Shown piece after piece: positions 861-56,725 of a DNA stretch of 64,000 bases. The notes below the pieces were generated by a model. The model did not search any database, was not told where the DNA came from, and saw only the letters and a list, made by a program, of their open reading frames with translations. Each line of letters starts with the position of its first letter. Position 1 is the stretch's first letter. Source of the stretch: Burkholderiaceae bacterium (GTDB lineage Bacteria; Pseudomonadota; Gammaproteobacteria; Burkholderiales; Burkholderiaceae_C); assembly GCA_026125795.1 (NCBI GenBank), contig JAHCKM010000005.1, positions 372,001 through 436,000 of the forward strand, in the 5' to 3' direction. A program made the translations under genes and the position numbers.

Positions 861-878
861 CGTGTTCTCAGCTCTTCA

Positions 879-1748: not shown

Positions 1749-1760
1749 CCGAGTTGCGCG

Positions 1761-2795: not shown

Positions 2796-2802
2796 GTCGC
2801 AG

Positions 2803-7469: not shown

Positions 7470-8584
7470 TCGGGGAGGCATCGTTCGCGGGGCTTCGAAT
7501 TGGTTTGGTCGGTCCCATTCCGCCACCCGCGGGTGGCATGGCGATGCAGACGGCCCAACTCGCCGAACTGCTGCGCGCCGCGGATTCCGTAGTCGAGGTC
7601 GTGCCCAACAACTGCCCATATCGTCCGGCTTGGGTCGCTCGGTGGCCGGGCTTCCGCGCACTGTTTCGGCTGATGCCGTACTTCTTGGCCTTGTGGCGCA
7701 TGGCCGGGCGCAGCGACTTGATCCACCTGATGGCCAATTCCGGCTGGTCGTGGCATCTGTTTGCGGTGCCGGCGATCTGGATAGGTTGGCTGCGCCGCGT
7801 GCCTGTGGTCGTGAACTATCGCGGCGGCGAGGCGTCCGGCTTCCTGGCAAGTTGTGCCGGACTGGTGCGATTCAGCATGCGCCGGGCAAGCAAGCTCGTC
7901 GTGCCGTCGGGCTACCTACAGGAAATCTTCGCCGAGTATGGTATGAGCAGCGACATCCTGCCCAACGTTGTCGATCTCACTCGTTTCCGGCCTTCAGACG
8001 CATGGCCGCCCCCTGACCCTGTTCTGCTGGTGGCCCGCAATCTCGAACCCTTGTATGACAACGCTAGCGCGCTGCGGGCCTTTGCAAGAGTGCGCGAGCG
8101 CTGGCCTAAGGCCATGCTGATCATCGCCGGGACCGGACCGCAAGCCAACGAGTTGCGCGATCTTGCCGATGAACTTGGCCTGGCCGGTACGGTGAGCTTT
8201 GTCGGACGCCTCGATCGCGACGCCATGGCGGCGCTCCTGCGCGGCGCCAGCGTTGCGCTGAACCCGAGCCTTGCTGACAACATGCCCAACTCCGTGTTGG
8301 AGGCACTGGCTAGTGGGATTCCGGTGGTGAGCACCGCCGTCGGCGGAGTGCCCTACATGGTGGAGAACGGGCGAACCGCCCTGCTGGTGCCGCCACGGGA
8401 TGACAAAGCAATGGGCGACGCCGTGATGCGCCTGCTCGCAGATGGCGCGCTGGCCCGGCGTCTCGCCGCAGCCGGGCTCCAATCGGTGCGCGGCAATGCC
8501 TGGGACCAGGTCGCGCCCAAGCTGGCCGCTCTCTATCGCAGCGTGCTCGGTTCGAGGTTACAAGGTGCGGCCAATCCCATCTGA
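7466..8584 (+). CDS. GT4 glycosyltransferase
   Basis: A 372-residue GT-B enzyme starting with the ATG of an ATGA overlap with the preceding glycosyltransferase. RIGLVGPIPPPAGGMAMQT is the N-terminal acceptor-domain loop. VVNYRGGEA and the donor-domain region SLADNMPNSVLEALASGIPV give the GT4 EX7E motif. It lacks the TIGR04063 N-terminal signature and looks like a general EPS glycosyltransferase. Tight coupling implies that it acts in the same assembly sequence. Specificity cannot be read from the sequence. Confidence 0.85.
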   Translation: MIGEASFAGLRIGLVGPIPPPAGGMAMQTAQLAELLRAADSVVEVVPNNCPYRPAWVARWPGFRALFRLMPYFLALWRMAGRSDLIHLMANSGWSWHLFAVPAIWIGWLRRVPVVVNYRGGEASGFLASCAGLVRFSMRRASKLVVPSGYLQEIFAEYGMSSDILPNVVDLTRFRPSDAWPPPDPVLLVARNLEPLYDNASALRAFARVRERWPKAMLIIAGTGPQANELRDLADELGLAGTVSFVGRLDRDAMAALLRGASVALNPSLADNMPNSVLEALASGIPVVSTAVGGVPYMVENGRTALLVPPRDDKAMGDAVMRLLADGALARRLAAAGLQSVRGNAWDQVAPKLAALYRSVLGSRLQGAANPI

Positions 8585-8621
8585 GACCGGTGACACAGCC
8601 ATCTCGGTCACGCGGCCGGTC

Positions 8622-9980
8622 ATGAACCGAAGCCTCTACACCCGGCTCGTGTCAGGGGTCATCTTTCCTTTGCAGGAACGTCTGAAGCGACACGATACGG
8701 TGGCAGTTCGCCGCTCGCTGGAGCGTTCGCAGTGGTGGCCGGCGCAACGGCTGCGCGAATATCAGATCGATCGGCTGCGCACGTTGCTGGTCGAAGCCGG
8801 GCGTGCAGTGCCGTACTACCGTGATCTGTTCGAACGCATCGGCTTCGAGCCAAGGCAGGTGTGCAGCGTCGAGGACCTGCGGCGCCTGCCGTTTCTGGAC
8901 AAGGCCACGATCCGATCGCACACCGAGGCGTTGAAGCACCCGGAGGCGCGCGGATTGGCGCGCTTCAACACCGGCGGCAGCTCGGGCCAGCCGCTGGTAT
9001 TCTTCATCGGTCGGGAGCGCGTGAGTCACGACGTGGCCGCCAAGTGGCGCGCCACGCGCTGGTGGGGCGTGGACATCGGCGACCCCGAGATCGTGGTCTG
9101 GGGATCGCCGATCGAGCTGGGTGCGCAGGATCGGGTGCGCCAGCTGCGCGACACCGCGATGCGCACGGAGTTGCTGCCAGCTTTCGACATGAGCGAGTCC
9201 AACCTGGATGCGATGGTGCGCAAGGTGCGCCGGCGCCGCCCTCGCATGTTGTTCGGCTATCCGTCGGCGCTCAGCCGCCTGGCCCGCCACGCGCAACGGC
9301 GCGGCCAGTCGATGAACGATCTGGGCATCCGCGTGGCCTTTTGCACCAGCGAACGCCTCTACGATGATCAGCGCGCCACGATCTCGCAGGTGTTCGGATG
9401 CCGTGTCGCCAACGGCTACGGCGGCCGCGATGCCGGCTTCGTTGCACACGAGTGCCCGCATGGCGGGATGCACATCACCGCCGAAGACATCGTCGTCGAG
9501 CTGATCGATCGCGATGGCGTGCCTGCGGCCGAGGGGCAGCCCGGCGAGGTCGTGGTCACGCACCTGGCGACGAGCGAGTTCCCGTTCATCCGCTATCGCA
9601 CCGGCGATGTCGCCGTGCTCGGCGCGCGACGCTGCCCGTGCGGGCGTGGCTTGCCGCTACTCGAGGAGATCCAGGGTCGGACTACGGACTTCGTCTATGC
9701 CGCAGACGGCACCGCGATGCACGCGCTGGCGCTGATCTACATCCTGCGCGACCTTCCCGGCCTGGACAGCTTCAAGATCGTGCAGCACGACCTCCTGCAT
9801 GTCTGCGTGCAACTGGTGCCGGGCCCCGGTTTCGATCCGGCGTGCGCGGAGGTGATCCGGTGCGGGTTCCACCAGCGCCTTGGCGAGGGCGTGCGGGTGC
9901 AGATCGACCGTGTCGCGGCGATCGAGCCGGAGCGTTCGGGCAAATTCCGCTATGTTGTCAGCCACGTGGCGGCGAGTTGA
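8622..9980 (+). CDS. PaaK/CapK-like AMP-dependent (phenylacetate-CoA ligase-like) enzyme
   Basis: A 452-residue adenylate-forming protein of the phenylacetate-CoA ligase/CapK group. It has the phosphate-binding loop FNTGGSSGQPLVF (about residues 120-132), FPFIRYRTGDVAVLG, and a CPCGRGLP cysteine segment typical of PaaK relatives. The start is ATG 8622; a longer in-frame version would run back into the upstream glycosyltransferase. CapK-like proteins are common in capsule/EPS loci but their reaction is unsettled; activation of an acyl substituent for polymer decoration is the usual guess. It precedes the O-ligase-like gene by 14 bases. Confidence 0.8.
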   Translation: MNRSLYTRLVSGVIFPLQERLKRHDTVAVRRSLERSQWWPAQRLREYQIDRLRTLLVEAGRAVPYYRDLFERIGFEPRQVCSVEDLRRLPFLDKATIRSHTEALKHPEARGLARFNTGGSSGQPLVFFIGRERVSHDVAAKWRATRWWGVDIGDPEIVVWGSPIELGAQDRVRQLRDTAMRTELLPAFDMSESNLDAMVRKVRRRRPRMLFGYPSALSRLARHAQRRGQSMNDLGIRVAFCTSERLYDDQRATISQVFGCRVANGYGGRDAGFVAHECPHGGMHITAEDIVVELIDRDGVPAAEGQPGEVVVTHLATSEFPFIRYRTGDVAVLGARRCPCGRGLPLLEEIQGRTTDFVYAADGTAMHALALIYILRDLPGLDSFKIVQHDLLHVCVQLVPGPGFDPACAEVIRCGFHQRLGEGVRVQIDRVAAIEPERSGKFRYVVSHVAAS

Positions 9981-9994
9981 CTCCGCGATCGGCC

Positions 9995-11305
9995 ATGCGC
10001 GACATCGTCATCGTTGCCATCGTCGTGATCTGCGCGCTGACCGCGCTCCGGCGGCCCTGGGTCGGCGTGGTGCTGTGGACATGGCTCAGCCTCATGAACC
10101 CGCACCGCTTCACGTACGGCTTCGCGTTCGACGCGCCGCTGGCGGCGATGGCCGCGGGAAGCACGCTGGTGGGCTTCGTGCTGACCAAGGACAAGAGTTC
10201 GCCGGTGAAGGGCACGCCGGTGGTCTGGATGCTGATCTTCATGGTCTGGTTCACGCTTTCGTGGCTTGCCGGCATGAACGTGGCCGGCGACTACGAGCAG
10301 TGGAACAAGGTCATGAAGATCGACGTGATGATCATCGTCGGCATGGCGTTGTTGCACAGCAAGCTGCACATCATGACGCTGTGCTGGGTATGTGTCGGTT
10401 CGCTCGCCTTGCTCGGCGCCAAAGGCGGCCTGTTCACCATCGCCACCGGCGGCAGCTATCGCGTATGGGGCCCGCCGGGGAGTTTCATCGCCGACAACAA
10501 CGAATTCGCGCTGTCGCTGGTCATGACCATTCCGCTGCTGCGCTTCCTGCAGCTGCAGCTTCGCGAGGGCTGGCCCCGGCATGCGATGACGGTCGTGATG
10601 CTGTTGTGCGCGGCCTCGGCCCTGGGATCCCAATCGAGAGGCGCGCTGCTCGCGATCAGCGCGATGGCGCTAGTGCTCTGGTGGCGCGGCAACAAGCGAC
10701 TGGTTGGCGGCGTGCTCATGCTGCTCGCTGGCGCGGCGCTGGTCGCGTTCATGCCGGACAGCTGGAGCGACCGGATGTCCACGATCCAGGAGTACTCCGA
10801 GGACCGGTCGGCGATGGGGCGCATCAGTGCGTGGTGGGTGGCCTGGGGCATCGGCAAGACGCACCTCCTCGGGGTGGGATTCGATCCGGCCCGCCCGGAT
10901 CTTTTCGCGATCCACTCGCCGTATCCCGACTACGTGCACGCTGCGCACAGCATCTATTTCCAGGTCATGGGCAACCACGGCATGATTGGCTTCTTCATCT
11001 TCCTGGGCATCTTCGTCAGCACGTTCATCTGGGCCGGCCGGCTGCGCAAGGAAGGCCTCGTGCACGAGCGCGCAAAGTGGTGCGGCGAGCTCGGCGCCAT
11101 GGCACAGGTGTCGCTGGTCGGCTATGCGGTGGGCGGAGCCTTTCTCAGCTTGGCGTACTTCGACCTGCCGTACAACATCATGATGATGGTGGTTCTGGCG
11201 CGGGTTTGGACTCGGCAGCGCGCCTGGGAAAAGGAGCCCCAGAACATCGCTCCCGACCACTTCCTGTTCCGTTGGTTGGCGCCACGCCGCGCCGGCAGCC
11301 CATGA
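9995..11305 (+). CDS. Exosortase-A-associated O-antigen ligase/polymerase-like membrane protein
   Basis: A 436-residue polytopic inner-membrane protein with roughly ten hydrophobic segments. The start MRDIVIVAIVVICALTALRR and WTWLSLMNPHRFTYGFAF match the putative O-glycosylation ligase of exosortase-A loci (TIGR03097). A periplasmic loop carries MGRISAWWVAWGIGKTHLLG and YVHAAHSIYFQVMGNHG, the Wzy_C/WaaL-type region with conserved Arg and His. It either polymerises repeat units (Wzy role) or ligates glycan to an acceptor. The stop overlaps the next start (ATGATGA). Confidence 0.87.
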   Translation: MRDIVIVAIVVICALTALRRPWVGVVLWTWLSLMNPHRFTYGFAFDAPLAAMAAGSTLVGFVLTKDKSSPVKGTPVVWMLIFMVWFTLSWLAGMNVAGDYEQWNKVMKIDVMIIVGMALLHSKLHIMTLCWVCVGSLALLGAKGGLFTIATGGSYRVWGPPGSFIADNNEFALSLVMTIPLLRFLQLQLREGWPRHAMTVVMLLCAASALGSQSRGALLAISAMALVLWWRGNKRLVGGVLMLLAGAALVAFMPDSWSDRMSTIQEYSEDRSAMGRISAWWVAWGIGKTHLLGVGFDPARPDLFAIHSPYPDYVHAAHSIYFQVMGNHGMIGFFIFLGIFVSTFIWAGRLRKEGLVHERAKWCGELGAMAQVSLVGYAVGGAFLSLAYFDLPYNIMMMVVLARVWTRQRAWEKEPQNIAPDHFLFRWLAPRRAGSP

Positions 11306-12294
11306 TGCGCGGCCTGTTCGCGTTGGCGGCGGGCAGCGGGCGGCGAGCGCGGCTGTCGATCCTCGTGTTCCACCGGGTCTTGCCTCGCCCGGACCCGGTC
11401 TTTCCTGAAGAGGTCGACTTCGATCGCTTCGACACGATCTGCTCGTGGGTGCGCGATTGGTTCAATGTGCTGCCGCTGGACGAAGCCGCGCGGCGGCTCG
11501 CCGAAGGCACGCTGCCCTCGCGCGCGCTGGCCATCACATTCGACGACGGGTACAGCGACAACCGGCTCCACGCCGCACCGATCCTGCGGCGCCACGGGTT
11601 GCCCTGCACCTTCTTCATCGCCACCGGCATGCTCGACGGCGGGCTGATGTGGAACGACACGCTGATCGAAGCGATGCGGCACACGCGATTGCCCCAACTG
11701 GACCTGCGCGCCGTGCACCCGGAACTGGGCGAGCATGCGTTGGATGATCCGGCATCGAGGCGGCGCGCCATCGATCGCACGATCGGTGCGCTCAAGTACC
11801 TCGAGCCCGGCATCCGCCGCGATCGTGTGCAGGCCGTGGCGCGCGCGGCCCAGGTGGAACCCGCCCGCGACCTGATGATGAGCTCGCAGCAGGTTCGCGA
11901 GCTGCGGTCGATGGGCATGCAGATCGGCGCCCACACGATCACGCACCCGATACTGGCCAGCATGACCGACGAAAGCGCTCGCGCGGAGATCGTCGACAGC
12001 CGCCGCCACCTCGAAGCGATTCTCGGCGAGCCGGTGCGGTTATTCGCCTATCCGAACGGCAAGCCCGGCGGTGACTACGACGCGCGCCATGTCGAGATGG
12101 TCCGCGAGGCCGGCTTCGCAGCGGCCGCGTCGACCGTCTGGGGCGTGTCGACGAGGGGCTCCGACCGCTTCCAGTTGCGCCGCTTCTCGCCGTGGGACCG
12201 CAGCAGGCTGCGCTTCGGGCTGCGCATGCTCGGCAACATCGTTAAGCCCGAGGCTCCCGTTCACACGCCCGCGAACGCCGGCCTACACGCCTGA
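11302..12294 (+). CDS. Polysaccharide deacetylase (NodB domain)
   Basis: A 330-residue enzyme of carbohydrate esterase family 4 type. ILVFHRVLPRPDP near residue 20, the catalytic ITFDDGYSDN near residue 80, and GAHTITHPILASM (metal histidines) near residue 215 are all present, as is FAYPNGKPGGDYD. The ATG lies inside the stop of the ligase-like gene; a second ATG is three bases on. No clear signal peptide. It differs from the XrtA-type deacetylase at 879 and likely acts on a different acetylated residue or step. Confidence 0.88.
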   Translation: MMRGLFALAAGSGRRARLSILVFHRVLPRPDPVFPEEVDFDRFDTICSWVRDWFNVLPLDEAARRLAEGTLPSRALAITFDDGYSDNRLHAAPILRRHGLPCTFFIATGMLDGGLMWNDTLIEAMRHTRLPQLDLRAVHPELGEHALDDPASRRRAIDRTIGALKYLEPGIRRDRVQAVARAAQVEPARDLMMSSQQVRELRSMGMQIGAHTITHPILASMTDESARAEIVDSRRHLEAILGEPVRLFAYPNGKPGGDYDARHVEMVREAGFAAAASTVWGVSTRGSDRFQLRRFSPWDRSRLRFGLRMLGNIVKPEAPVHTPANAGLHA

Positions 12295-13250
12295 TGGTCG
12301 AAGTCTTCTTCACCATCGATGTCGAGGTGTGGTGCGACGGCTGGCAGGACATCGATGCCCGATTTCCCGCGGCATTCGAACGCTACATCTACGGTCCCGG
12401 CCGTCAGGGCGGGTTGCCCGACCAACTGCAGATCCTGCGCGACCACGGCCTGATGGCGGTGTGCTTCGTGGAACCGCTGTTCTCGGGCCGGTTCGGCGCC
12501 GCGCCTCTCGAGGAGGTCGTGGGCCTGATCCGTGACGCCGGCCACGAGGTGCAGATGCACCTGCACACCGAGTGGGTCGACGAGGCGCGGGTTCCGATGC
12601 TGCCGGCCGTGCGGCGCAAACGGCAGCACCTGCGCCATTTCGACCGGGCCGAGCAGTGCGCGCTCGTGCGGCAGGGGATCGCTATGCTGCAGGGCGCCGG
12701 CGCCCTACGCCCCACGGCCTTTCGGGCAGGCAGCTTCGCGATGAACGCCGACACGCTGGCGGCATTGGCCGACAACGGGATCGCCATCGATTGCAGCTAC
12801 AACGCTAGCACTATGGGGCCCAGCAGTGGCGTCTGTCCGGGCGAGACGCTCGACCAGGCGCGGCAGCTCGGACCGGTGCTGGAGCTGCCGATGACCGTCT
12901 ATGCCGATGGGCGAGGTCTGCGCCACACGCAGCTCACGGCCTGTTCCTGGGGTGAGCTTCAGGCATTGCTGTGGCAGGCTGCCGACCGCGGCCACGGGCA
13001 GTTCGTCGTGCTGTCCCACAACTTCGAACTGCTGACTCCCGGACTGCAGCGCGTCGACCCGATCGTGTTGCGCCGACTGCGCCGACTGGCCGCCTTTCTC
13101 GATCGGCACCGGGATCGCTTTCGCGTTCGCGGACTGCTCGGCGATGCGCCAACACCGCCGAGCGCTGCGCCACGCCACCTGCGCTCGCCGCTGTGGCGAA
13201 CCGGTGCGCGGGTGCTGGAGCAGGCCTGGCGCCGGACCTACTCGCGCTGA
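12294..13250 (+). CDS. WalW-like member of the polysaccharide deacetylase superfamily
   Basis: A 318-residue NodB-fold relative. It begins VEVFFTIDVEVWCDGW, with the Asp of motif 1 in an IDVE context, and has HEVQMHLHTEWVDEA, resembling WalW-type LPS-locus proteins (HLHPEW) rather than the classic H(S/T)xxHP motif. FRAGSFAMN and VVLSHNFELLTPG complete the barrel. The altered metal motif means deacetylase activity is not assured. Its ATG overlaps the preceding stop by one base (TGATG), so the two barrel proteins are translationally coupled. Confidence 0.75.
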   Translation: MVEVFFTIDVEVWCDGWQDIDARFPAAFERYIYGPGRQGGLPDQLQILRDHGLMAVCFVEPLFSGRFGAAPLEEVVGLIRDAGHEVQMHLHTEWVDEARVPMLPAVRRKRQHLRHFDRAEQCALVRQGIAMLQGAGALRPTAFRAGSFAMNADTLAALADNGIAIDCSYNASTMGPSSGVCPGETLDQARQLGPVLELPMTVYADGRGLRHTQLTACSWGELQALLWQAADRGHGQFVVLSHNFELLTPGLQRVDPIVLRRLRRLAAFLDRHRDRFRVRGLLGDAPTPPSAAPRHLRSPLWRTGARVLEQAWRRTYSR

Positions 13251-13254
13251 GTTG

Positions 13255-14739
13255 ATGCTCTTCACGACGCCCGCCTTCATCCTGCTCTTTCTGCCGATCA
13301 CGCTGGCCGGCTACTACCTGCTCGGGCGCCGCTGGCACCTTGCTGCAGCGGGCTGGTTGCTCGCGGCCTCGCTGTTCTTCTACGGCTACTGGATGCCGGA
13401 GTTCACGCTGCTGCTGGTGGCGTCGATCTCGTGCAACTTCGCGATCGGCCGCCATATCGCCGATCGAGCGCACCAGGGCGCCAAGCCGGCCGCGAAGCGG
13501 TGGATGATCCTCGGCATTGCCCTCAACCTCGGCCTGCTGGCGTACTTCAAGTACGCCAATTTCTTCGTCGACAACCTCAATGCGCTGGTCGGCGGCGATT
13601 GGCACATCGGCCGCATCATCCTGCCGATCGGCATCTCATTCTATTCATTCACGCAGATTGCATTCCTGGTCGATGCCCACGAAGGCAAGGTCCGCGAAAC
13701 CAATCCGATCCACTACGGACTGTTCGTGACCTACTTCCCGCATCTGGTCGCCGGCCCGGTGCTGCACCACGCACAGATGATGCCGCAGTTCGCCGACACG
13801 GCGGTGTATCGACCGCGCGCCGGTCCGCTGTTGGCCGGCGCCGCCATCTTCGCGCTGGGGCTGTTCAAGAAGGTGGTGCTGGCCGACGGCCTCGCACCCT
13901 ACGCGGATGCCGTCTTCTCGCCTGCCGATGCCGGTCGTCTGCCGGGCACCACGGAAGCCTGGCTCGGCGCGGTGGCCTACACGCTGCAGCTCTATTTCGA
14001 CTTCTCCGGGTACTCCGACATGGCGATCGGGCTGTCGCACATGTTCGGCATCCGGTTGCCTTTCAACTTCAACTCGCCCTACCAGGCGCGCAACATCTCG
14101 GACTTCTGGCGGCGCTGGCACATTTCGCTGTCCACCTTCCTGCGCGACTATCTCTATGTTCCGCTGGGCGGCAATCGCAATGGACCGGTGCGCCGATACC
14201 TGAACCTGGCCGCGACGATGTTGCTGGGTGGCCTGTGGCACGGTGCGGGTTGGACGTTCGTGGTTTGGGGCGGGTTGCATGGCCTCTATTTGATGGTCAA
14301 CCATGGCTGGCGCGCATGGATCGGCGAAGCGCGACAGGCGCGCCTCGAGGGTTCGCGCGCATATGGCGTCTCGAGCTGGCTGCTCACGCTGCTCGCGGTC
14401 GTGGTGGCGTGGGTCTTCTTCCGCGCCGAGACATTTTCCGGAGCGGGGCGCATGCTGCAGGCGATGGCAGGCTTCGGCGCGAGTGAGCCGGTTCAGGTGC
14501 AGTTGTGGAATGCCGGCCTGTCCGTTCGCACGGGCGCGCTGTGGTGCGGGCTGCTGGGTGCCCTTGCCCTGCTGGCACCGAACAGCAACCGCATCGGCGA
14601 CGCGCTGCTGCGCACCCTGACTCGGCCCGTGCGCTGGCGGCCCGCCCTCGGGGGTGCCGCCAGCGTGGCGATCGCCATGCTGCTGTTGATCAACACGGCG
14701 CGCGACTCGGTCAGCGCCTTCATCTACTTCAACTTCTGA
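13255..14739 (+). CDS. MBOAT O-acyltransferase (AlgI-like)
   Basis: A 494-residue polytopic membrane protein. LQLYFDFSGYSDMAIGLSHM, NFNSPYQARNISDFWRRWH and the active-site His segment GGLWHGAGWTFVVWGGLHG are the classic AlgI/DltB-type MBOAT motifs. It should pass an acetyl or other acyl group across the inner membrane for O-acylation of the exported polymer. I chose ATG 13255, four bases after the previous stop, because the upstream in-frame extension lies inside the previous gene and is not membrane-like. The following SGNH-type gene overlaps its stop (TGATG), as in alginate algI/algX/algJ partnerships. Confidence 0.92.
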   Translation: MLFTTPAFILLFLPITLAGYYLLGRRWHLAAAGWLLAASLFFYGYWMPEFTLLLVASISCNFAIGRHIADRAHQGAKPAAKRWMILGIALNLGLLAYFKYANFFVDNLNALVGGDWHIGRIILPIGISFYSFTQIAFLVDAHEGKVRETNPIHYGLFVTYFPHLVAGPVLHHAQMMPQFADTAVYRPRAGPLLAGAAIFALGLFKKVVLADGLAPYADAVFSPADAGRLPGTTEAWLGAVAYTLQLYFDFSGYSDMAIGLSHMFGIRLPFNFNSPYQARNISDFWRRWHISLSTFLRDYLYVPLGGNRNGPVRRYLNLAATMLLGGLWHGAGWTFVVWGGLHGLYLMVNHGWRAWIGEARQARLEGSRAYGVSSWLLTLLAVVVAWVFFRAETFSGAGRMLQAMAGFGASEPVQVQLWNAGLSVRTGALWCGLLGALALLAPNSNRIGDALLRTLTRPVRWRPALGGAASVAIAMLLLINTARDSVSAFIYFNF

Positions 14740-20390: not shown

Positions 20391-22217
20391 TCATGCGTAC
20401 TTGTTCGCGATGTGCGTCGAGTCCTTGCGGCTGGATTGCGCAAGCGGCGCATCGGCACAGCGCACCCACTCGACGATGGTTGCCGCGGCGGCGTCCTTCC
20501 ATTCGCGGCGGGAAAACGTGTGATCCGCATCGGCCAGATCGCGGCGCACCAGCCGGGGCGAGTCGAGCAGGCCCGACCAGGCGGCCGAGGCCGCGGTCAC
20601 TTCATCGAACTCCCGGGCGATGTAGTCCTGGCCGCTCATCAGCAGCAGGGCGCGCCCCTTGAAGCGGCTCAGGCCCGCAGCGGTCTTGGCGTGCAACGGC
20701 AATCGCGCCATGTCTTCATCGGCAGCGGCAAGCCGGTCGGCCTTGAACCGGCGCCGGCCCTGCACGAAATCATGCAGCGCCCGAACGAAGGAGCGCACCG
20801 ACTCCTTGACGTCGACCCGCAGCGAGAACAGCTTGCGCCAGAAGTCGGGCGAGCGCAGGCGATCGAGGTAGTAGCGCTTGATGATCACTTGCGCCTGGCC
20901 TTCGGCGGATCGAACCCACGGGTTGATCAGCACTGCGCCGCCGACGCGCGGATCCTGCCAAGCGTAGAAGAGGATGCCGGAGGCCGATTCGCACTCGCCG
21001 ATCAACACCACGTCGCGCACATCGGGCCGGTTGCGCAGCAGCGCATCCACGGCGGCGCGGATGTCGGCTGAAGATTGCTGGAACCCGAGGTGAACGCCGC
21101 TGCTGTCGCCCATGCCGCGCAGGTCGAAACGAAGCACCGGATGGCCTTGCGCAGCCAGCAGCCGCGCCAGGTTGACGAATTGCCGATGCGCACCCACCCG
21201 GTACTGCGGCCCCCCCGCCACGACGATCACGACGCCGCGATGGCCTGGGGAATCGGATTCACGGTGCAAGCACCCCACCAGGCGCTCGCCGGCGCACTCG
21301 AACACCACGAGCCGCTCGGGCTGCTCGCCAGCCGCGGCGATAGCTGGGGGCGTGTCGCCTGCCGGCGCCGTTGCCGGCCATTTGCCGCACGCCGCCTGTG
21401 TGGCCTCGATCAACTCGGGAGCGAGCTCGCGCTCGTGCACATGCCAGAACGCCGGGCCCGCGACGGCCGACGCCTGGGTCTCGATGCCGCGCGCATGCAA
21501 CCGCTGCAGAGGCGCGGCCGATGCAGGCGCCAGTTCGGCAGCCGCTCCCTGCGGCACGACCTCGAACCAATCCAGCGCGACCGAGGCCGGCACCGCGCCC
21601 GGGTCGAACACGAGCCCATCGAGCTGGGTGGCGAGCGCGGGAGATACTTCGTACCCGGACACCTCCACGATCTGCCCTTGCTCCGACAACTTGCGCAACT
21701 CGGCGGTGGAGGTCGAGCGCGACGACTGCTGCATCTCGGCCGCCATTCGAATGCGCAGGAACTGGGTGTAGAAGGTCTTGCCCGAAAGGACCGGCTGCCA
21801 CAGCAGCAGCCGCTTCACCCCGCTGCGCGCCTGCGCGATCTGCAGCGCCATGACGGCGCCGAGCCGGATGCCCAGCACTGCGCGACAGCCGCCGCCGTGG
21901 TGGTCGAGCCAGTCGGCTCCCACCAGCATGTCGGCGCGCCATCCGTCCCACGTGGCTTCGGAGAACTCGCCCGCGCTGTCGCCTGTGCCGAACGGGTCGA
22001 CCAGCAAGGTGCCGATGCCCAACCCGGCGAGCCGACGCGCCTGCAACGAGACCATCGACCGGCAGCGGTTCATCTCCTCGGCGAACGCCGCGGCCACCAG
22101 CAAGCCGCCTCTGGCCGCAGTGTCGCTCGCCGGCGGGTAGTACAGGGCGCCCAAGATGCCGCGCTCGCCCTGGAGCGACAGCGCGAGGGGACCCAGCGAA
22201 TCGCCAGCGTTACTCAT
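20391..22217 (-). CDS. Fused exosortase-A hydrolase 2 - hydrolase 1 (tandem alpha/beta hydrolases)
   Basis: A 608-residue protein made of two alpha/beta-hydrolase halves. Residues 1 to about 290 resemble exosortase-A hydrolase 2 (TIGR03101): LLVDPFGTGDSAGEF and the elbow VLGIRLGAVMAL, where Arg replaces the usual Ser. Residues about 300-608 resemble hydrolase 1 (TIGR03100): VAGGPQYRVGAHRQFVNLAR, RFDLRGMGDSSG, elbow GECES (Cys409 at the nucleophile position), SGQDY (Asp530) and DADHTF (His566). The linker is Ala/Pro-rich. These are normally two adjacent genes. Only the second half has a plausible triad. It likely acts on acyl or thioester intermediates of EPS synthesis, and lies 61 bases downstream of an ACP gene. 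Confidence 0.85.
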   Translation of the reverse strand: MSNAGDSLGPLALSLQGERGILGALYYPPASDTAARGGLLVAAAFAEEMNRCRSMVSLQARRLAGLGIGTLLVDPFGTGDSAGEFSEATWDGWRADMLVGADWLDHHGGGCRAVLGIRLGAVMALQIAQARSGVKRLLLWQPVLSGKTFYTQFLRIRMAAEMQQSSRSTSTAELRKLSEQGQIVEVSGYEVSPALATQLDGLVFDPGAVPASVALDWFEVVPQGAAAELAPASAAPLQRLHARGIETQASAVAGPAFWHVHERELAPELIEATQAACGKWPATAPAGDTPPAIAAAGEQPERLVVFECAGERLVGCLHRESDSPGHRGVVIVVAGGPQYRVGAHRQFVNLARLLAAQGHPVLRFDLRGMGDSSGVHLGFQQSSADIRAAVDALLRNRPDVRDVVLIGECESASGILFYAWQDPRVGGAVLINPWVRSAEGQAQVIIKRYYLDRLRSPDFWRKLFSLRVDVKESVRSFVRALHDFVQGRRRFKADRLAAADEDMARLPLHAKTAAGLSRFKGRALLLMSGQDYIAREFDEVTAASAAWSGLLDSPRLVRRDLADADHTFSRREWKDAAAATIVEWVRCADAPLAQSSRKDSTHIANKYA

Positions 22218-22278: not shown

Positions 22279-22515
22279 TCACGCGATGCCCTGGTTCTTC
22301 AAGTGCGCCAGGATCGCTGGCACGGAGTTGAGCTCGCCGAACTGCTCGACTTCGACGTAAACGCCGAACTCGTGCTCCAGCGCCATCAGCAGATTGATGT
22401 GGCCCAGCGAGTCCCACTGCTTCAGATCCTGGTCGCGCGTGGTTTCGCCGATGTCGGAAGGCGACACCTTCAGTGTCGCCGCGATCACGTTGCGAAGGCG
22501 TTCGAAGGTGCTCAT
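22279..22515 (-). CDS. Acyl carrier protein (FkbH partner)
   Basis: A 78-residue acyl carrier protein. The phosphopantetheine site is Ser36 in KQWDSLGHINL, followed by the acidic helix LEHEFGVYVEVEQF. The start is the ATG that overlaps the FkbH stop by four bases (ATGA), which excludes a longer 161-codon frame running antisense-like into FkbH. It should carry the acyl group that FkbH loads. A second, different ACP lies at 56409-56660. Confidence 0.92.
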   Translation of the reverse strand: MSTFERLRNVIAATLKVSPSDIGETTRDQDLKQWDSLGHINLLMALEHEFGVYVEVEQFGELNSVPAILAHLKNQGIA

Positions 22516-24359
22516 GGTCGTTCGGGCCCGTTGATCTCGATCGGATAGGCGTCGGCGCGATGGGGCGGCGCGGCGACGAGATCGCGCAACCAACGCCCAT
22601 CGGGTCGAAGCTGGAAGCCCTCCGACGCCAGGAAGTCCTTCACCAGCTCGTTCTTCGGCGTGGGCAGGTACTCGGCGGCAAGCTGCACGACTCCGTCGGC
22701 GGCCAGGCGGCGCATCACTGCATGCAGGAATGCGCTTTCGGCTTGCCGCCCGATCACCCGGCACGACATCAGGAACGAATCGATCCGCGCCGATCGCGCA
22801 TCGTTGCGCTCGCGCTCGATCAGCGCCAGTCCCACCGTGCCGCTGTTGCCGAAGACATCCGACAGCGAGAAATCGAACACCGACCAGTCGGAGCTGTGCA
22901 TGTACGCATTCAGCCGCGCCTCGTCGTACCGCCGGGTGGTGAGGTTGAACTGGTTGGTCTTCTGCGTGAGCTGCGCGAGCCGGGCCAGGTGCGTGGGGGC
23001 GTCAAGGTGCACGCTCATGCGCATGCCCAGGCGGCTCAGGTAGTCGCCGCCCGAGCTCTGGGCTTCCTGCTGCAGTTCCCTGCGCAGCCGCTCCTGGGCG
23101 TACATCCCCGTCTTGCCGAAGTCCTCGGCGGTCAGCGAGAGGACCTCCAGCCGTGCCACCTGATCGAGCACCTGCGCCGCGACGGCGGGCCGTGCGGGCA
23201 CCTGCACGACCTCGACTTGCGGCAGCTCCTGGCGCACCGCTTCGCACTCGTGGGGGCTGTCGTCGACGAAGATGAAGGACTCCAGTCCGAGATTCAGCTC
23301 CTCGGCCAACGACCTCAGATTGGCCGGCTTGGGAAGCCAGTTGACCCGCCGCGCGGCAAAGTCCCTGTCGCGCAACACCATGTGAGGATGCTGCTCCAGC
23401 ACCTGCGCCACATCGGCCGGATTGTTCTTGCTGCACATCGCCACGATCAGACCGCGCTGCTGGAAGTCGAGCACGCGCCGCTGCAGATCCATGTAGGCAT
23501 TGCCGGGATAGTCCGGGCCGAGCTGAATGCCATCGATCCCGTCCTCGCCGACGATGCCGCCCCACAGCGTGTTGTCGGCATCGAGCACCAGCACCTTGGC
23601 CTTCGGTTTGAGTTTGGCCGCGCCCACCGCCACGATGCGCCGCGCCACATCGCGCGCGCCGGCGGCGCCGAACGGAAAGCGGGCCGAATACCAGAACCGC
23701 CGGTCGAAGAAGGCCTCGCGCCCGATGTCGCTCAGCGCATCGTCCAGGTCCAGCAGCAGCGATGCGGGGGCGTGGTTGCGCAGCCACCGCCCGAGCTCGG
23801 TCTTGAAGCCCGCCCACCACTTCGACTCCGAGACCTCGGCCTGGGTCTCGAAGAGGCCCAGCACGGGTGGTGCCAGGCGGGGCAGGAACGTGACCACCAG
23901 ATGTCCGATGTCGTGGGCGCGAAACCCCGAGATGATCTCCTGGGCGCGCTGCAGGCCTTCTCGTGCGATCTGGGCGGCCTGGTCCTGTTCGACCGGGCGT
24001 GCGAGCCGCGGGTGCAGATCCTCGCGCTGCAGCAGCAGCACCGTGACATGAGGCCGGTGCGCCACGAGCATCGATCGAGAATCGGCTTCCTGCAACGCCA
24101 AGCCGTAGGGGGCGTGGTAGCTCCGGTGGTCCAGACCCTCGGCGGCGGCAGCCAACGCCAACCACGGTTCGAGCAGATCGCTCGTGTAGGTATGCACGAA
24201 CGCCAGCCGCAGCGGGGGTGCCTGCGGCGCCAAGGACCGTGCATGCGAGGCCACTTGCTGCGCCTGCGCCGGTGTCGCCGGGGCGCAACCGGCCGCCAAT
24301 TCGGCCCGCAGTTGCGGCAAGGACATCGCGGATAGCAGTCGGTCGATACCAGAAGTCAT
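22512..24359 (-). CDS. FkbH-like HAD-family acyl-loading protein
   Basis: A 615-residue protein with an N-terminal SGNH-like region followed by a HAD phosphatase domain: KVLVLDADNTLWGGIVGEDG (about residues 256-275, DxDxT nucleophile motif), AMCSKNN (motif II) and FIFVDDSPHECEAV (motif III). The C-terminal quarter (QTNQFNLTTRRY type) is the GNAT-like tail seen in FkbH. Known FkbH proteins turn 1,3-bisphosphoglycerate into glyceryl-ACP. ATG 24359 is taken; an upstream in-frame CTG/TTG extension has no family resemblance. It is translationally coupled to the ACP and divergent from the MaoC-SDR gene. Confidence 0.9.
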   Translation of the reverse strand: MTSGIDRLLSAMSLPQLRAELAAGCAPATPAQAQQVASHARSLAPQAPPLRLAFVHTYTSDLLEPWLALAAAAEGLDHRSYHAPYGLALQEADSRSMLVAHRPHVTVLLLQREDLHPRLARPVEQDQAAQIAREGLQRAQEIISGFRAHDIGHLVVTFLPRLAPPVLGLFETQAEVSESKWWAGFKTELGRWLRNHAPASLLLDLDDALSDIGREAFFDRRFWYSARFPFGAAGARDVARRIVAVGAAKLKPKAKVLVLDADNTLWGGIVGEDGIDGIQLGPDYPGNAYMDLQRRVLDFQQRGLIVAMCSKNNPADVAQVLEQHPHMVLRDRDFAARRVNWLPKPANLRSLAEELNLGLESFIFVDDSPHECEAVRQELPQVEVVQVPARPAVAAQVLDQVARLEVLSLTAEDFGKTGMYAQERLRRELQQEAQSSGGDYLSRLGMRMSVHLDAPTHLARLAQLTQKTNQFNLTTRRYDEARLNAYMHSSDWSVFDFSLSDVFGNSGTVGLALIERERNDARSARIDSFLMSCRVIGRQAESAFLHAVMRRLAADGVVQLAAEYLPTPKNELVKDFLASEGFQLRPDGRWLRDLVAAPPHRADAYPIEINGPERP

Positions 24360-24520
24360 GGACGGGAAGGGGTGGCAACGTGGAAGCACTCCACAGTGCG
24401 CGAGAGGCTTCTGACTCGGCCGGCGAGCCTAGCATGCAGGGGGGTGGCGGTCAGCTCCGCGGCCGAGGGGGTGCCAAATCCTGCAGCGGCAGCGCCCATC
24501 GATGATGTCATGATCGCCAC
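24360..24520. promoter_or_regulatory. Divergent intergenic region between FkbH and MaoC-SDR operons
   Basis: These 161 bases separate two divergent transcription units that probably belong to one acyl-group pathway, so a bidirectional promoter is expected. I see no convincing -35/-10 pair. TCATGAT about ten bases before ATG 24521 is a weak -10-like element. Confidence 0.35.
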
Positions 24521-25987
24521 ATGCATGCCGCTTTTGACGCCACCGGCCGGGCGCTTGGCGATGTCACGTTCAACGACCGCGACCAGCAGCGCTTCGCGAT
24601 GCATTCGCGCGACCGCAATCCGATGCACGTCGATGCCACGGTCGCGCGACGCACGCTGACCGGGCGGCAGGTCGTACACGGCATTCACGTGTTGATCCAG
24701 GCGTTGGATCGCGTCCGGATGCCGAAGGCACCGCGAAGCCTCGGCGTGTCCTGCTCGTTCGCCAATCCGGTCGGCATCGGCGATCCGGTGCGATTCATCC
24801 AGACCGACGACACCGATGCGGACGGCATCCGGATCGTCGCGACGGTCCGTGGGCTTGTCTGCACGCAGGTGGAAATCGCCAGGGCCCCCACTGCGCCGGC
24901 CAGCACCCCGGTTGCAGTACCGCACGGCACCGCCGCCGACGAGGTCATCGGCGAGCTGGCCGATCCGCTCGATTGCGATCCGGCGGCGCTGCAAGGAGCG
25001 ACCTTCGTGCTGCCACCGCGGCACGATGGTCTTGCCGAGGAGTTTCCGCGTGCCGCAGCGCTGGTTGGAGCGCCGGCGTTGAGCGCACTGGCCGGGCTGT
25101 CTTACTTCGTGGGCATGGTGTGCCCGGGCCTGCACTCGATGTTCTCGTCGCTTCAGTTGCGCATTGAGCCCGAGTCGCGCGGTGCGCTTCGGTTCGAGGT
25201 CAAGCGCTGGGATCCGCGGTTTCGTCTGTTCACGATCGCCTTCTCGGGTGCGGTGAGCGGAGAGCTCCGGGCGTTCCGGCGCCCGCAGCCGCAGGTGCAG
25301 CCGAGCGCCGCCACGGCCGCCGCCGCCGTGCGGCCGCAGGAGTTCGGCCGCATGCGCGCTCTCGTGATCGGCGGCTCGCGTGGGCTGGGCGAAGTGTGCT
25401 GCAAGCTCGTCTGCGGCGGCGGCGGTTGGGCATGCATCACCTATGCGAAAGGTCGCGACGATGCGGTTGCGGTGGCTCACGATGTCAACCAGCTCGGGCG
25501 CGGGCGCTGCGAGGTCGCCGAACTGGATCTGGGCGGGCCCTTTCGCGGCATGTCCACAGTCGATGCGGCATCGGTGAACTGCGTGTTCTATTTCGCGACC
25601 CCGCACATCCACTCCAAACGGCTGGAGCTGTTCTCCCGAGCGGCGTTCGATGGGTTCTCGGGCTTCTATCTCGATCGCTTTCATGAGCTTTGCATGTGGC
25701 TGGAAGGCGCGAAGCGCGATGCGCCTGCGCTGGTCTATCTGCCTTCGACCGTCTTCATCGACGAGCGGCCCAAGGGCATGACCGAATACGCGATGGTGAA
25801 GGCCGCGGCCGAGATCCTCGCTGCCGACCTGAACCGGAGCCTTTCGAAAGTGAGAGTGATCCACAGCCGCCTGCCTCGCCTGGCCACCGACCAGACCGCC
25901 AGCATCCTCGGCCTGCAGAGCGCGTCGAACCTCGACACGATGCTCGACGTGGTGCGCCGGATGGCCACCGCGATCGAAGCGCGATAG
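24521..25987 (+). CDS. MaoC-like double-hotdog dehydratase fused to short-chain reductase
   Basis: A 488-residue two-domain protein. Residues 1 to about 255 form two hotdog-like halves: HSRDRNPMHVDATVARR (residues 28-44, the MaoC D-x4-H hydratase motif) and VHGIHVLIQ, then a second half around GLHSMFSSLQLRIEP. A linker rich in Ala and Pro leads to an SDR domain: ALVIGGSRGLGEVCC (about residues 280-294, NAD(P) loop) and the TEYAMVKAAAE Tyr/Lys motif near residue 424. Together these could carry out hydration/dehydration and keto reduction of an ACP-bound acyl group. It is divergent from FkbH-ACP and followed five bases later by an acyltransferase gene. Confidence 0.85.
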   Translation: MHAAFDATGRALGDVTFNDRDQQRFAMHSRDRNPMHVDATVARRTLTGRQVVHGIHVLIQALDRVRMPKAPRSLGVSCSFANPVGIGDPVRFIQTDDTDADGIRIVATVRGLVCTQVEIARAPTAPASTPVAVPHGTAADEVIGELADPLDCDPAALQGATFVLPPRHDGLAEEFPRAAALVGAPALSALAGLSYFVGMVCPGLHSMFSSLQLRIEPESRGALRFEVKRWDPRFRLFTIAFSGAVSGELRAFRRPQPQVQPSAATAAAAVRPQEFGRMRALVIGGSRGLGEVCCKLVCGGGGWACITYAKGRDDAVAVAHDVNQLGRGRCEVAELDLGGPFRGMSTVDAASVNCVFYFATPHIHSKRLELFSRAAFDGFSGFYLDRFHELCMWLEGAKRDAPALVYLPSTVFIDERPKGMTEYAMVKAAAEILAADLNRSLSKVRVIHSRLPRLATDQTASILGLQSASNLDTMLDVVRRMATAIEAR

Positions 25988-25992
25988 ACGGC

Positions 25993-27237
25993 ATGCTTGC
26001 CGCCGGATCCCAGCCTCAAAGCGAGCCCGAGCGTGACCTCGAGGTGAGCGATGGAGCGACGAGGTGGTGGGAACTGCTCGACTTCTCGTCTGCGGAGCGC
26101 CGCACACAATCATTGCGATGCGCGCGCACGATCGCCCCGAAAACCGGGCCGGGTGCGCGATCGTTCGACCTCGAGTGGAAGCTGGGGCCGGATCCGGACT
26201 GGTCCAGGGTTCGCGTCTATGTGTTGCGTGAAGGCCCTGTCGCGCGAGGGTTGGCGATGTTCATCCTGCGCGACTGGCCTCTGGTCTTCCGGCTCGGCGA
26301 AATCGCGATCGGTTCCGCCCGGCTCGACCGATGGACGACGGTCGGCGATGTGCACATCGATCCGGGTCTCGATGTCGATGCCCGGGCCGCTGCAGCGGCG
26401 CAATTGCTCAGCGCGGTTCTCGCCAGCCTTCGGTCCAGTGAGGCGCTGTTCTTCGAGGGTCTGCCGGTGACGCGACCGACCTACGGGTTGCTTGCCGCCA
26501 ACAACCGGCGCACGAACGCCCTCACGATTCAGATGGGGGCAGCTTACGATCACCAATTCATCGCTTTCCCGCCATCGTTCGAGGAGTACCTGCAGCAACT
26601 CGGCTCGCGCTCCCGGCAGAGCCTCAAGTACAGCGCTCGCAAGCTCGACAAGGACATGGACGGTCAGGTGCAGCTGGTGAAGTTCGCCGATGCCGAGGGG
26701 GCGATCCGGTTTCTGACCGACGCCGCTGCGATCTCACGCAAGACCTATCAGACCAAGCTCCTCGGGCTGGGCATCCGTGACGACTCGAAGGCGAGGGCTC
26801 GCTTGAGCCAGGCGGCGGCCAAGGGCTGGTTGCGCAGCTACATCCTCTACTGCAAGGACACCCCCGCCGCGTTCATGCTGGGCTTCGACTACGGCGGCTG
26901 CTACTACTACGACGATGTCGGCTACGACCCCGACTACGCCAAATGGTCGGTCGGCTCGGTGCTGCAGATTAAGGTGATCGAGGAGATCATGGGTTCACAG
27001 CCCCGGATCGAACACTTCGATTTCTCCACGGGCTTCGGTCAGCACAAGGGGCGGTTCGGCAACGAGGAACAACGCGAAGTCAACTTGCTGGTGCTTCGGC
27101 GCACCGCGCGAAACCAGGTTCTCGCATCCGCCTATCGTTGCGCCGAGTGGTTCGGATCCACCGTCGTGTCGGGCCTCGATCGACTCGGCGTGAAAGGCTG
27201 GCTGAAGAACCTCGTACGCGGCCGCGGGCGCGTCTGA
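25993..27237 (+). CDS. FemAB/CelD-like GNAT acyltransferase
   Basis: A 414-residue protein of the double-GNAT (FemAB/BcsL-CelD) type. SRQSLKYSARKLDKDM in the middle is the typical FemAB-like basic helix. GYDPDYAKWSVGSVLQIKVIE and HFDFSTGFGQHKGRFGN form the second GNAT half with its acyl-donor loop. ATG 25993 sits five bases after the MaoC-SDR stop; a longer frame overlaps that gene and is rejected. The neighbourhood predicts transfer of the FkbH/ACP-made acyl group to an amino sugar. Confidence 0.82.
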   Translation: MLAAGSQPQSEPERDLEVSDGATRWWELLDFSSAERRTQSLRCARTIAPKTGPGARSFDLEWKLGPDPDWSRVRVYVLREGPVARGLAMFILRDWPLVFRLGEIAIGSARLDRWTTVGDVHIDPGLDVDARAAAAAQLLSAVLASLRSSEALFFEGLPVTRPTYGLLAANNRRTNALTIQMGAAYDHQFIAFPPSFEEYLQQLGSRSRQSLKYSARKLDKDMDGQVQLVKFADAEGAIRFLTDAAAISRKTYQTKLLGLGIRDDSKARARLSQAAAKGWLRSYILYCKDTPAAFMLGFDYGGCYYYDDVGYDPDYAKWSVGSVLQIKVIEEIMGSQPRIEHFDFSTGFGQHKGRFGNEEQREVNLLVLRRTARNQVLASAYRCAEWFGSTVVSGLDRLGVKGWLKNLVRGRGRV

Positions 27238-27250
27238 AGGCCGAAGCAGC

Positions 27251-27898
27251 GTGTTCGCGATCGACCGCCTGACGACCGAATTCCGCCAACGAGGCCTGCC
27301 CGGTCTCGGCAGGTTGCTGCTAACGTGTCTGGCCCGGCGCAGGGAGGACCTGCTGTTCGACATCGGCCTGACCGGTTTGCCCGACGCGGCAGATCCTCTC
27401 CCGCGTGTCGTGTTCATCGATCGGGCCAACGTCGGCGATGCGAGCGTGGCCGCGGTCGCGCGGCAGGTGTTCGTCGGGGACAACGTGCCTTACCGTGCCG
27501 GCGTCGAAAGCAGCGACATGCTGTGCGCGGTTCTCGACAGCCAAGGTGCCCTCGCGTGCTACGGCTTCGTGTTGTTCCGCACGCACTACAAGCGGATCCT
27601 GGGCGTTGCCGACGATGTCCCGCTGATCGCCAACTGCTTCACCGTGCCGGCCGCCCGCGGGCGCGGCCTGTATGTGCGCATGCTCCGGGACCTGTGCCGC
27701 GAACTGGCGCGGCGCGGCCACACCCGAGCGGCGATCAGTTGCGAGCCGGGCAACGTGGCGTCACGGCGCGGCATCGCTCGTGCCGGCTTCAGCGGTCTGA
27801 CACACATCCGGTCGACCACGATCCTGTGGCGTCTGATCGTGGCCCGGCGCGTGCAGCGCTACGCGCTGTGGCAACTGGCAAACGGGTCGGCAACCTGA
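27251..27898 (+). CDS. GNAT-family N-acyltransferase
   Basis: A 215-residue protein with a GNAT fold: IANCFTVPAARGRGLYVRML contains the acetyl-CoA pyrophosphate loop (ARGRGLY), followed by AAISCEPGNVASRRGIARAGF, the typical motif B region. GTG start at 27251, 13 bases after the previous stop. Its stop lies three bases from the stop of the convergent methyltransferase gene, leaving no room for a terminator. It probably acylates an EPS sugar. Confidence 0.8.
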   Translation: MFAIDRLTTEFRQRGLPGLGRLLLTCLARRREDLLFDIGLTGLPDAADPLPRVVFIDRANVGDASVAAVARQVFVGDNVPYRAGVESSDMLCAVLDSQGALACYGFVLFRTHYKRILGVADDVPLIANCFTVPAARGRGLYVRMLRDLCRELARRGHTRAAISCEPGNVASRRGIARAGFSGLTHIRSTTILWRLIVARRVQRYALWQLANGSAT

Positions 27899-27901: not shown

Positions 27902-28633
27902 TTACTGGTCCGGCACGAAACGAAGCACGACACCGGCGCGATGCGATGCGATCTCGCGCCAACGCGGATCGCGGCGAAACAAGCCGATGTGCGCCGGGTC
28001 GGCGTAGATCACGTACGCATCGCGCGGCTGCGCGCGCAGACTGCGCATGAGCCGGTCGATCACGACGCCCATGACGGTCGGGCCGAAAGGGTTGTAGAAG
28101 TAGCACACCAGCGGCATCGGAGGCGGTTCGAAATCGACCGCGTCGATATGCACGCACTCCACGGCTTTCGCTCGTCGTGCACGGTCCTCGTGCGCGATGT
28201 TGTCGATCGCCACGGCATGAAGCTCCTGCGCGAACTCGACCCCGACGACCTTCAGGAACGGTCGCCGCGCCGCGACCATCAGCACACGCCCCTTTCCTGC
28301 GCCGAAGTCGATGAAGCAGAACTCCTCGACCGCCGGCGGCAGAAGATCGAGGAAATCCTCGACCACGTGTACCGCGGTCGCCTGGTAGCGATTACCGTGC
28401 ATGGCGTTGCGCGATCGGATGCTCAACGCGCCGATCTCGAGGATGCCGCCTGTATCGACGCCGATCGACTTGTCGAACCAGCGTGAACGGTTGTCGCTTG
28501 CCTTCATGCGCGCGACGACTCTCGACCACCCGATGTAGTGGCCGACATTCTTCGCCACGACAGCGGTGAACCCCGCCGGCCCATCTCGGTGCCAGGAGGT
28601 GATCAAGCGTTGAACGATCGATTTGGCGGGCAT
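27902..28633 (-). CDS. SAM-dependent methyltransferase-like protein
   Basis: A 243-residue class I methyltransferase-like protein. FCFIDFGAGKGRVLMVAARR (about residues 106-125) is the SAM-binding loop; VVGVEFAQELHAVA follows, and YFYNPFGPTVMGVVIDRL replaces the usual NPPY-type motif IV. The N-terminus LITSWHRDGPAGF is shared by EPS-locus proteins of unknown function. ATG start. It is about 190 bases downstream of an acyltransferase gene on the same strand. Confidence 0.75.
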   Translation of the reverse strand: MPAKSIVQRLITSWHRDGPAGFTAVVAKNVGHYIGWSRVVARMKASDNRSRWFDKSIGVDTGGILEIGALSIRSRNAMHGNRYQATAVHVVEDFLDLLPPAVEEFCFIDFGAGKGRVLMVAARRPFLKVVGVEFAQELHAVAIDNIAHEDRARRAKAVECVHIDAVDFEPPPMPLVCYFYNPFGPTVMGVVIDRLMRSLRAQPRDAYVIYADPAHIGLFRRDPRWREIASHRAGVVLRFVPDQ

Positions 28634-28825: not shown

Positions 28826-29674
28826 TCAGATGTCCAGGGCCATCAGTTCGCTATAGACGTCGCGCACCTGAGCGTGCGTGAGTCCTCGCGTCAGCGCGAG
28901 CTTCGGTTGCAGGCGCACGGCGCGATGCGACAGCGGCGGGGCTTGTTGGAGGAACCGCCCCTCGATGCGGGAAACCAAGAGGCCTCGCCGCAAGAGATGC
29001 TGCCGCAGCATGTGGCCGTGGCGCGAGGCGAGCTGAGGGTCGCTCACGTGCGTGAGCAGGGCACACGGCATCTTCTTCCAGCGGCCGGTCTTGTAGATCG
29101 CCAGCACGCCTTCGGGGCCGGCACCAAAGGCCACGAAGTTCAGCCACGGCAGATGCCGATGCGCTTCGAACTCGGCGCGCGCAGTCCCGCTCAATCGGGC
29201 AGCGATCGCTTCGGGTCGTGCCTCGACGAATTCGCCGCGCAGCCGCCACGGCCGTGCGAGGTTGGGAAAGTAGAGCAGGCGGTCGTCGAGCAGTTCGAAC
29301 CGCAGGCCGAGAAAGACCTGCGTGACCTTCGGATTGGGCGTGAACATCGTGAAGTGATACCCGCGCTGGCGTTGGATCGCCAGCACCAAGCCGATGCTCG
29401 CATGGCGGTGGCTGTCCAGCACGCACCAGCTGTGCGGATTGCAGAAGCGTTCGACGCGGCCGTCGATGACCTGCTCTGAATACAGGGCCAGCAACACCCC
29501 GGCGAGTTCGCCTTGAGGCGTGCGCAACTGCATCCCCAGGTTCGGCGGATCGGCACACCACCGCTGCTGCATGGCCTGGGCCCACGCTGCGGGCGAAATG
29601 CGCCGGTTGAGGTGCGCATGGAGGAACCGACTGACGGACTCGATGTCGGCTTGCTGGATTGGCTCGACGCTCAT
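28826..29674 (-). CDS. GNAT-like acyltransferase of unknown substrate
   Basis: A 282-residue protein. Its first half reads like a GNAT domain (LNRRISPAAWAQAMQQRW, then VLDSHRHASIGLVLAIQRQR and FTPNPKVTQVFLGLRFEL, the last resembling motif B). The second half shows no motif I recognise. The ATG overlaps the flippase stop (ATGA), so the flippase and this protein are made together. A role in decorating the lipid-linked unit before or after export is the simplest inference. Confidence 0.6.
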   Translation of the reverse strand: MSVEPIQQADIESVSRFLHAHLNRRISPAAWAQAMQQRWCADPPNLGMQLRTPQGELAGVLLALYSEQVIDGRVERFCNPHSWCVLDSHRHASIGLVLAIQRQRGYHFTMFTPNPKVTQVFLGLRFELLDDRLLYFPNLARPWRLRGEFVEARPEAIAARLSGTARAEFEAHRHLPWLNFVAFGAGPEGVLAIYKTGRWKKMPCALLTHVSDPQLASRHGHMLRQHLLRRGLLVSRIEGRFLQQAPPLSHRAVRLQPKLALTRGLTHAQVRDVYSELMALDI

Positions 29675-56660: not shown

Positions 56661-56725
56661 TTGAGTAACTCACGAAGCGCTTCGTTCGACAAGGCTGCAA
56701 CGCACAGTTGCGGCGAAGGGCGCCT

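Follow-up and report, generated by a model that had tools for sequence, protein, structure and literature searches.

An FkbH, acyl carrier protein and MaoC-SDR gene module in an XrtA-type exopolysaccharide locus, most likely a source of three-carbon acyl groups

This report concerns a group of genes in a 64,000-nucleotide stretch of DNA (the window) from a Burkholderiaceae bacterium (GCA_026125795.1, contig JAHCKM010000005.1, positions 372,001 to 436,000), whose genome (G000) is 6.57 Mb in size and which carries the window on its contig 5. Three of these genes encode an FkbH-type loading enzyme, a stand-alone acyl carrier protein (ACP) and a fusion of a MaoC-like hotdog protein with a short-chain dehydrogenase/reductase (MaoC-SDR), and together they form a real, conserved and widely scattered module. 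It most likely makes a three-carbon (C3) acyl-ACP and works with exchangeable acyltransferases. The core genes are:

22279..22515, minus strand: stand-alone ACP of 78 amino acids (aa), attachment site Ser36 (PF00550)
22512..24389, minus strand: FkbH-type loader of 625 aa, HAD-IIIC domain and FkbH C-terminal part (TIGR01686)
24521..25987, plus strand: fusion of MaoC hotdog, second hotdog-like part and SDR, 488 aa (PF01575, structure model, SDR fold)

A sequence-only reading of the window had combined these genes with two transferase genes, for a FemAB/GNAT-type protein and a small GNAT protein (GNAT215), into a five-gene acyl-decoration module. All five are present as intact open frames with domain matches above cut-offs, and their coordinates agree with that reading or nearly so; most gene boundaries stand, with the corrections that the ACP is a protein of 78 aa rather than a 161-aa frame and that the FemAB/GNAT gene starts at 25993, not 25690. 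The ATG of the ACP gene overlaps the FkbH stop codon (an ATGA junction) and the minus-strand unit is ordered FkbH, ACP and a fused XrtA-associated hydrolase 2/1, which starts 61 bases past the ACP stop. On the plus strand, the FemAB/GNAT gene starts 5 bases past the MaoC-SDR stop.

Linkage of the module was followed in a sample of 80 of 108 MaoC-SDR relatives, obtained from a scan of named genome contigs. Neighbours were counted in 60 loci (L032-L093 less the polyketide synthase (PKS) cases L086 and L089, with L032 and L033 being additions), of which 42 are flank-complete, with 4 kb of sequence or more on either side. Another 20 of the 80 (L094-L113) match only over the MaoC part and were excluded from these counts, with five of them holding FkbH (L094, L097, L099, L102, L109). 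Neighbour gene models come from a simple script, with names such as ftsZ or flg assigned by eye, and the sample includes near-related loci (L036/L060 from one metagenome-assembled genome (MAG), L058/L065, L062/L064 and L066/L074). FkbH lies within 5 kb of MaoC-SDR in 47 of the 60 loci and in 36 of the 42 flank-complete ones, and the figures for ACP are the same. The recorded taxa of the loci include Acidobacteria, alpha-, beta-, gamma- and deltaproteobacteria, Nitrospinae, Omnitrophota and Mycobacterium, among others.

Among 200 genomes of the window's order, full-length MaoC-SDR was found in three (G000, G143, G015), and FkbH and ACP adjoin it in both G143 and G015. At the level of the class, MaoC-SDR is present in 4 of 369 genomes (E 1e-25) and FkbH in 25 (E 1e-30; 24 above cut-off), while FkbH was found in 0 of 14 control genomes. 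All four MaoC-SDR genomes have it linked to FkbH, with gaps between the matches of 939, 116, 1472 and 1469 bases. The probability of this by chance is 1.7e-5, a figure that is weaker than it appears, since the loci of G357 and G399 are almost identical and approximately three of the four genomes are independent; their matches also cover only part of the MaoC-SDR model. Across 44 protein pairs (43 loci and the window) the identities of FkbH and MaoC-SDR are correlated (Pearson r 0.60), with none of 2000 permutations giving a value as high.

The catalytic residues of the three proteins are well preserved. FkbH matches TIGR01686 with an E-value of 1.1e-84 and 284.3 bits against a curated cut-off of 146.65, and its residues D270, D272 (the HAD aspartates), D376, D377 and C543 show no variation among the 54 sequences aligned, which take in PKS and L094-L113 sequences. 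By analogy with its family, it is predicted to load the glyceryl group of 1,3-bisphosphoglycerate onto the ACP. The ACP matches PF00550 above the gathering score, and its Ser36, assigned by position, is conserved in 31 of 31 aligned sequences. The MaoC part scores above gathering for PF01575 and combines a hotdog fold with Asp-x4-His, the dyad of MaoC and R-specific hydratases (D31 and H36, found in all 54 sequences with letters at these positions, two others having gaps). The SDR part possesses the classical signature of a glycine-rich nucleotide motif (G284, G288, G290) and Ser-Tyr-Lys (S409 in 56/56, Y423 in 55/56, K427 in 56/56), and the structure model of the fusion (predicted local distance difference test score, pLDDT, 91.2) has an SDR fold with corresponding fold matches. 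No NCBIfam SDR model matches MaoC-SDR at cut-off, and the fusion reaches no other NCBIfam cut-off either. For the second hotdog the basis is predicted secondary structure, as the fold-library matches covered nearly only the SDR part.

The same combination also occurs fused into PKSs, in three proteins that begin with MaoC-hotdog, SDR and FkbH:

L086, 9992-19525: PKS with MaoC-hotdog, SDR, FkbH start
L089, 9950-19420: PKS with the same start
L127, 3051-17018: PKS with the same start

Two Paenibacillus records encode PKSs of more than 3000 aa in which the N-terminal MaoC-hotdog, SDR and FkbH are followed by ketosynthase (KS), dehydratase, ketoreductase, methyltransferase and ACP domains (NCBIfam scan for L086 only); inspection by eye shows an ACP-like stretch separating FkbH from KS, where Pfam reports none. 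In the window's order, G148 has a 4656-aa protein with the same MaoC-SDR-FkbH start. An acyltransferase domain is absent from the listed Pfam matches of all three PKSs. As MaoC-SDR-FkbH is N-terminal and ahead of the first KS, it occupies the place of a loading module, and these PKS versions probably make polyketide starters. In the window, family scans reported no ketosynthase families for the proteins scanned, as had been claimed from sequence alone, and no ketosynthase was found after the module as expected for a PKS loading module. A PKS-type ketosynthase query gave no hit in the 52 window gene models (E 1e-3) or in the 621 neighbour genes lying within 7 kb, and none in L032-L113 except in L086 and L089, although FabH-type enzymes are outside its reliable reach. 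A longer acyl group, which had also been proposed, is so far unsupported by these searches.

It is about evenly probable that the product is a three-carbon hydroxyacyl-ACP, supplied for decoration of a surface polysaccharide. FkbH would move glyceryl from 1,3-bisphosphoglycerate to the stand-alone ACP, as expected from its family. The MaoC part would then remove the C3 hydroxyl of glyceryl-ACP, giving an enol which tautomerises to pyruvyl-ACP, and the fused SDR part would reduce the 2-keto group to yield lactyl-ACP. Finally, an acyltransferase would attach the lactyl group to an XrtA-type exopolysaccharide sugar, at either an amino or a hydroxyl group, with the tandem-GNAT protein (28826-29674) being the most likely enzyme and FemAB or MBOAT possible ones. 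In this scheme the C3 source and the use of an ACP would follow from knowledge of the FkbH family, while lactyl is the product we infer. The reading is supported by the linkage, the conserved catalytic residues, the three PKS fusions and the recurring acyltransferases. A wider version is more tentative, namely that FkbH-ACP-MaoC/SDR may be a widespread and mobile C3 cassette turning 1,3-bisphosphoglycerate into lactyl-ACP, with interchangeable acyltransferases (tandem GNAT, AAC(3)-like, OafA, MBOAT) lactylating surface glycans, often after deacetylation, and with fusion into PKSs as a starter module.

Lactyl starters and FkbH loading modules are known from oxazolomycin and bryostatin. The Dlt system has a loader (ligase DltA), a carrier (DltC) and an MBOAT (DltB) decorating an extracellular polymer; the window differs in having FkbH in place of an adenylating ligase and a predicted C3 hydroxyacyl group in place of D-Ala. 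The module resembles the PKS FkbH loading modules (L086, L089, L127) in uniting FkbH, hotdog/dehydratase, SDR/ketoreductase and carrier, which would build a C3 starter, but consists of separate proteins inside a polysaccharide locus with no PKS-type ketosynthase found. FkbH loading modules have already been published, with glyceryl-ACP formation described in extracts of PMC7489565 and the reaction tabulated as 1,3-bisphosphoglycerate and ACP to D-lactate-ACP in those of PMC7901079. The glyceryl-ACP routes to methoxymalonyl-ACP and tetronates likewise use an FkbH-like enzyme, a stand-alone ACP and 1,3-bisphosphoglycerate; these go on with dehydrogenases and a methyltransferase, or with a FabH-like enzyme, whereas the window has MaoC-SDR (PMC7489565, extracts). 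In Campylobacter jejuni an FkbH gene also accompanies surface-glycan genes: the fkbH-domain gene cj1302 is compared among strains in a flagellar-glycan paper (PMC7099621) and dimethylglyceric acid, a glyceric-acid-type acyl group on pseudaminic acid, is found on flagellin (PMC3068675), to which cj1302 may be linked; MaoC-SDR is not named in the extracts of either paper.

The remaining genes of interest around the module are:

12294..13250, plus strand: deacetylase-like protein, recurring in loci with a close FkbH type (44% identity to the L053 copy)
13255..14739, plus strand: MBOAT membrane O-acyltransferase, DltB/AlgI-like (PF03062, E 4.1e-36; TIGR04091, E 4.5e-51, below cut-off)
20391..22217, minus strand: fused XrtA-associated hydrolases 2 and 1, 608 aa (TIGR03101 and TIGR03100, both above cut-off)
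25993..27237, plus strand: FemAB/GNAT-type transferase, lineage-specific addition (PF13480 above gathering)
27251..27898, plus strand: small GNAT transferase (GNAT215), lineage-specific addition (PF00583 above gathering)
27902..28633, minus strand: methyltransferase-like protein, lineage-specific addition (Pfam matches below cut-off)
28826..29674, minus strand: tandem-GNAT-fold transferase, 282 aa, recurring module partner (fold match)

The co-occurrence check proposed for the five genes gave a divided result. FkbH, ACP and MaoC-SDR are conserved together as described, but none of the 60 loci has a homolog of FemAB or GNAT215 (phmmer, E 1e-3) or of the methyltransferase-like protein within 5 kb. 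The FemAB gene is present in 7 of the 200 order genomes (E 1e-20) and GNAT215 in one (E 1e-10), with the window's own genome included in both counts, and the five-gene module was rejected. Acyl decoration as such fits the frequent company of the module, which includes acyltransferases, a deacetylase-like protein and polysaccharide genes. Within 5 kb in the 42 flank-complete loci are found MBOAT (15 loci), AAC(3)-like (9; PF02522 in the L035 copy), OafA-like (8), deacetylase-like (8) and tandem GNAT (8) proteins and XrtA hydrolases (6), and 29 of the 42 have at least one of MBOAT, AAC(3)-like, OafA-like or tandem GNAT within 8 kb. Compact sets of FkbH, ACP, AAC(3)-like, OafA-like, deacetylase-like and MaoC-SDR genes are present in L053 and L066. 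No AAC(3)-like transferase was found in the window genome, an empty result which shows little alone, and deacetylase activity is a guess for the protein so named here, as Pfam gave only DUF2334, below cut-off. The window MBOAT and deacetylase-like genes lie 7.8 and 9.3 kb from FkbH, respectively. In both G357 and G399 the ACP and MaoC-SDR-like genes are separated by a gene (L116 8005-8532, L117 7085-7612) for a protein of 175 aa that by eye looks like a hexapeptide-repeat acyltransferase.

The tandem-GNAT gene, absent from the earlier gene set, lies 2.8 kb beyond MaoC-SDR, and the fold of its product is similar to those of various GNATs, glucosamine N-acetyltransferases among them. In L034, by MaoC-SDR the nearest relative among the matches listed (57% over the alignment), this gene stands directly after MaoC-SDR on the opposite strand, and the three window genes in between therefore look like an insertion or replacement. 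A search of 30 genomes found the tandem-GNAT gene in two, G000 and G015, both with MaoC-SDR; G143 has MaoC-SDR without it. In a search of G143 and the 29 genomes with hydrolase 1, 26 of the 30 have a TIGR03098 ligase above cut-off.

The placement of the module inside an exopolysaccharide locus holds up, as six curated XrtA-associated families are above cut-off around it (TIGR03006, TIGR03019, TIGR03108, the fused TIGR03101-TIGR03100, and TIGR03098), marking the locus as one of the XrtA/PEP-CTERM type. The XrtA hydrolases were rejected as fixed module members, with hydrolase 1 above cut-off in 29 of the 200 order genomes, only G000 and G015 of which have full-length MaoC-SDR, and with hydrolase and MaoC-SDR about 200 kb apart in G015. 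Long single frames matching the hydrolase 2/1 fusion occur in other relatives too, for example L034, L060 and L070, and separate genes in L039 and L068. Further along the window, positions 56409-63251 comprise what is perhaps a second carrier-protein system: a further ACP resembling AsbD/AmcB (below cut-off), proteins similar to asparagine synthase and to a formyltransferase-deacetylase fusion, and the TIGR03098 acyl-CoA ligase.

Several points weigh against lactyl supply to a surface polysaccharide. No biochemistry on any module member was found in the open-licence literature searched, and the action of the MaoC part on glyceryl-ACP is a step we infer. By rank, the identities of FkbH and MaoC-SDR correlate less strongly (Spearman 0.30), in 13 of the 42 flank-complete loci no transferase of the four types tested lies within 8 kb, and the tandem GNAT is not obligatory, since 34 of the 42 have no copy within 5 kb. 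Some modules lie outside exopolysaccharide loci: in L033 and L068, one of them from a Nitrosomonas, the module with tandem GNAT adjoins flagellar flg genes (by eye), which suggests flagellin glycan decoration, and in L053 (a Methylococcales MAG; 8-3113, 7876-14506) the module, accompanied by genes for AAC(3)-like, OafA-like and deacetylase-like proteins, is near ftsQ/ftsA/ftsZ-like genes (by eye). The acceptor is thus probably not one polymer. FkbH is not within 5 kb in six of the 42 loci (L044, L076, L078, L080, L081, and L072, where it lies at 5.3 kb), and L078, where no FkbH was found, has an AMP-forming ligase beside the ACP, so MaoC-SDR may accept other acyl groups. This last observation, with the TIGR03098 ligase (61617-63176) and second ACP (56409-56660) of the window, would fit an unlikely reading in which MaoC-SDR acts on a ligase- or fatty acid synthase-derived acyl-ACP, e.g., 3-hydroxyacyl, and FkbH has a separate purpose in the cluster; the proximity of FkbH in 36 of the 42 loci and its joining to MaoC-SDR in three PKS fusions argue against it.

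With the module and target unchanged, it is possible, at rather less than even probability, that the product is acrylyl, 3-hydroxypropionyl or modified glyceryl instead of lactyl. With two hotdogs, MaoC-SDR could catalyse more than one round, and the methyltransferase-like protein (27902-28633) could O-methylate the acyl group in the manner of the dimethylglyceric acid of C. jejuni (PMC3068675, extracts); however, the methyltransferase-like protein lacks a homolog within 5 kb in the 60 loci, and clusters recurring in at least 4 of 61 loci (by eye) show one further SDR (4 loci) and no second dehydratase. That the product is a small diffusible metabolite and not a decoration on a polysaccharide seems more improbable still. 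The probable starter role of the PKS versions would agree with it, and the window TIGR03098 ligase also matches adenylation-domain and non-ribosomal peptide synthetase models below cut-offs, but the PKS-type ketosynthase query was empty in both the window and the neighbour genes, and the recurring neighbors are polysaccharide and acyltransferase genes.

The module had been called undescribed; while FkbH chemistry is in print (PMC7489565, PMC7901079, extracts), the open-licence literature searched yielded no account of the stand-alone FkbH/ACP/MaoC-SDR combination in glycan loci. If lactyl supply to surface polysaccharides is correct, surface-glycan acylation would be supplied with carbon linked to glycolysis, by way of a carrier protein and with no extension of the chain. 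The MaoC-SDR fusion, now below every NCBIfam cut-off, would gain a likely job, and polysaccharide decoration would be linked to polyketide starter chemistry.

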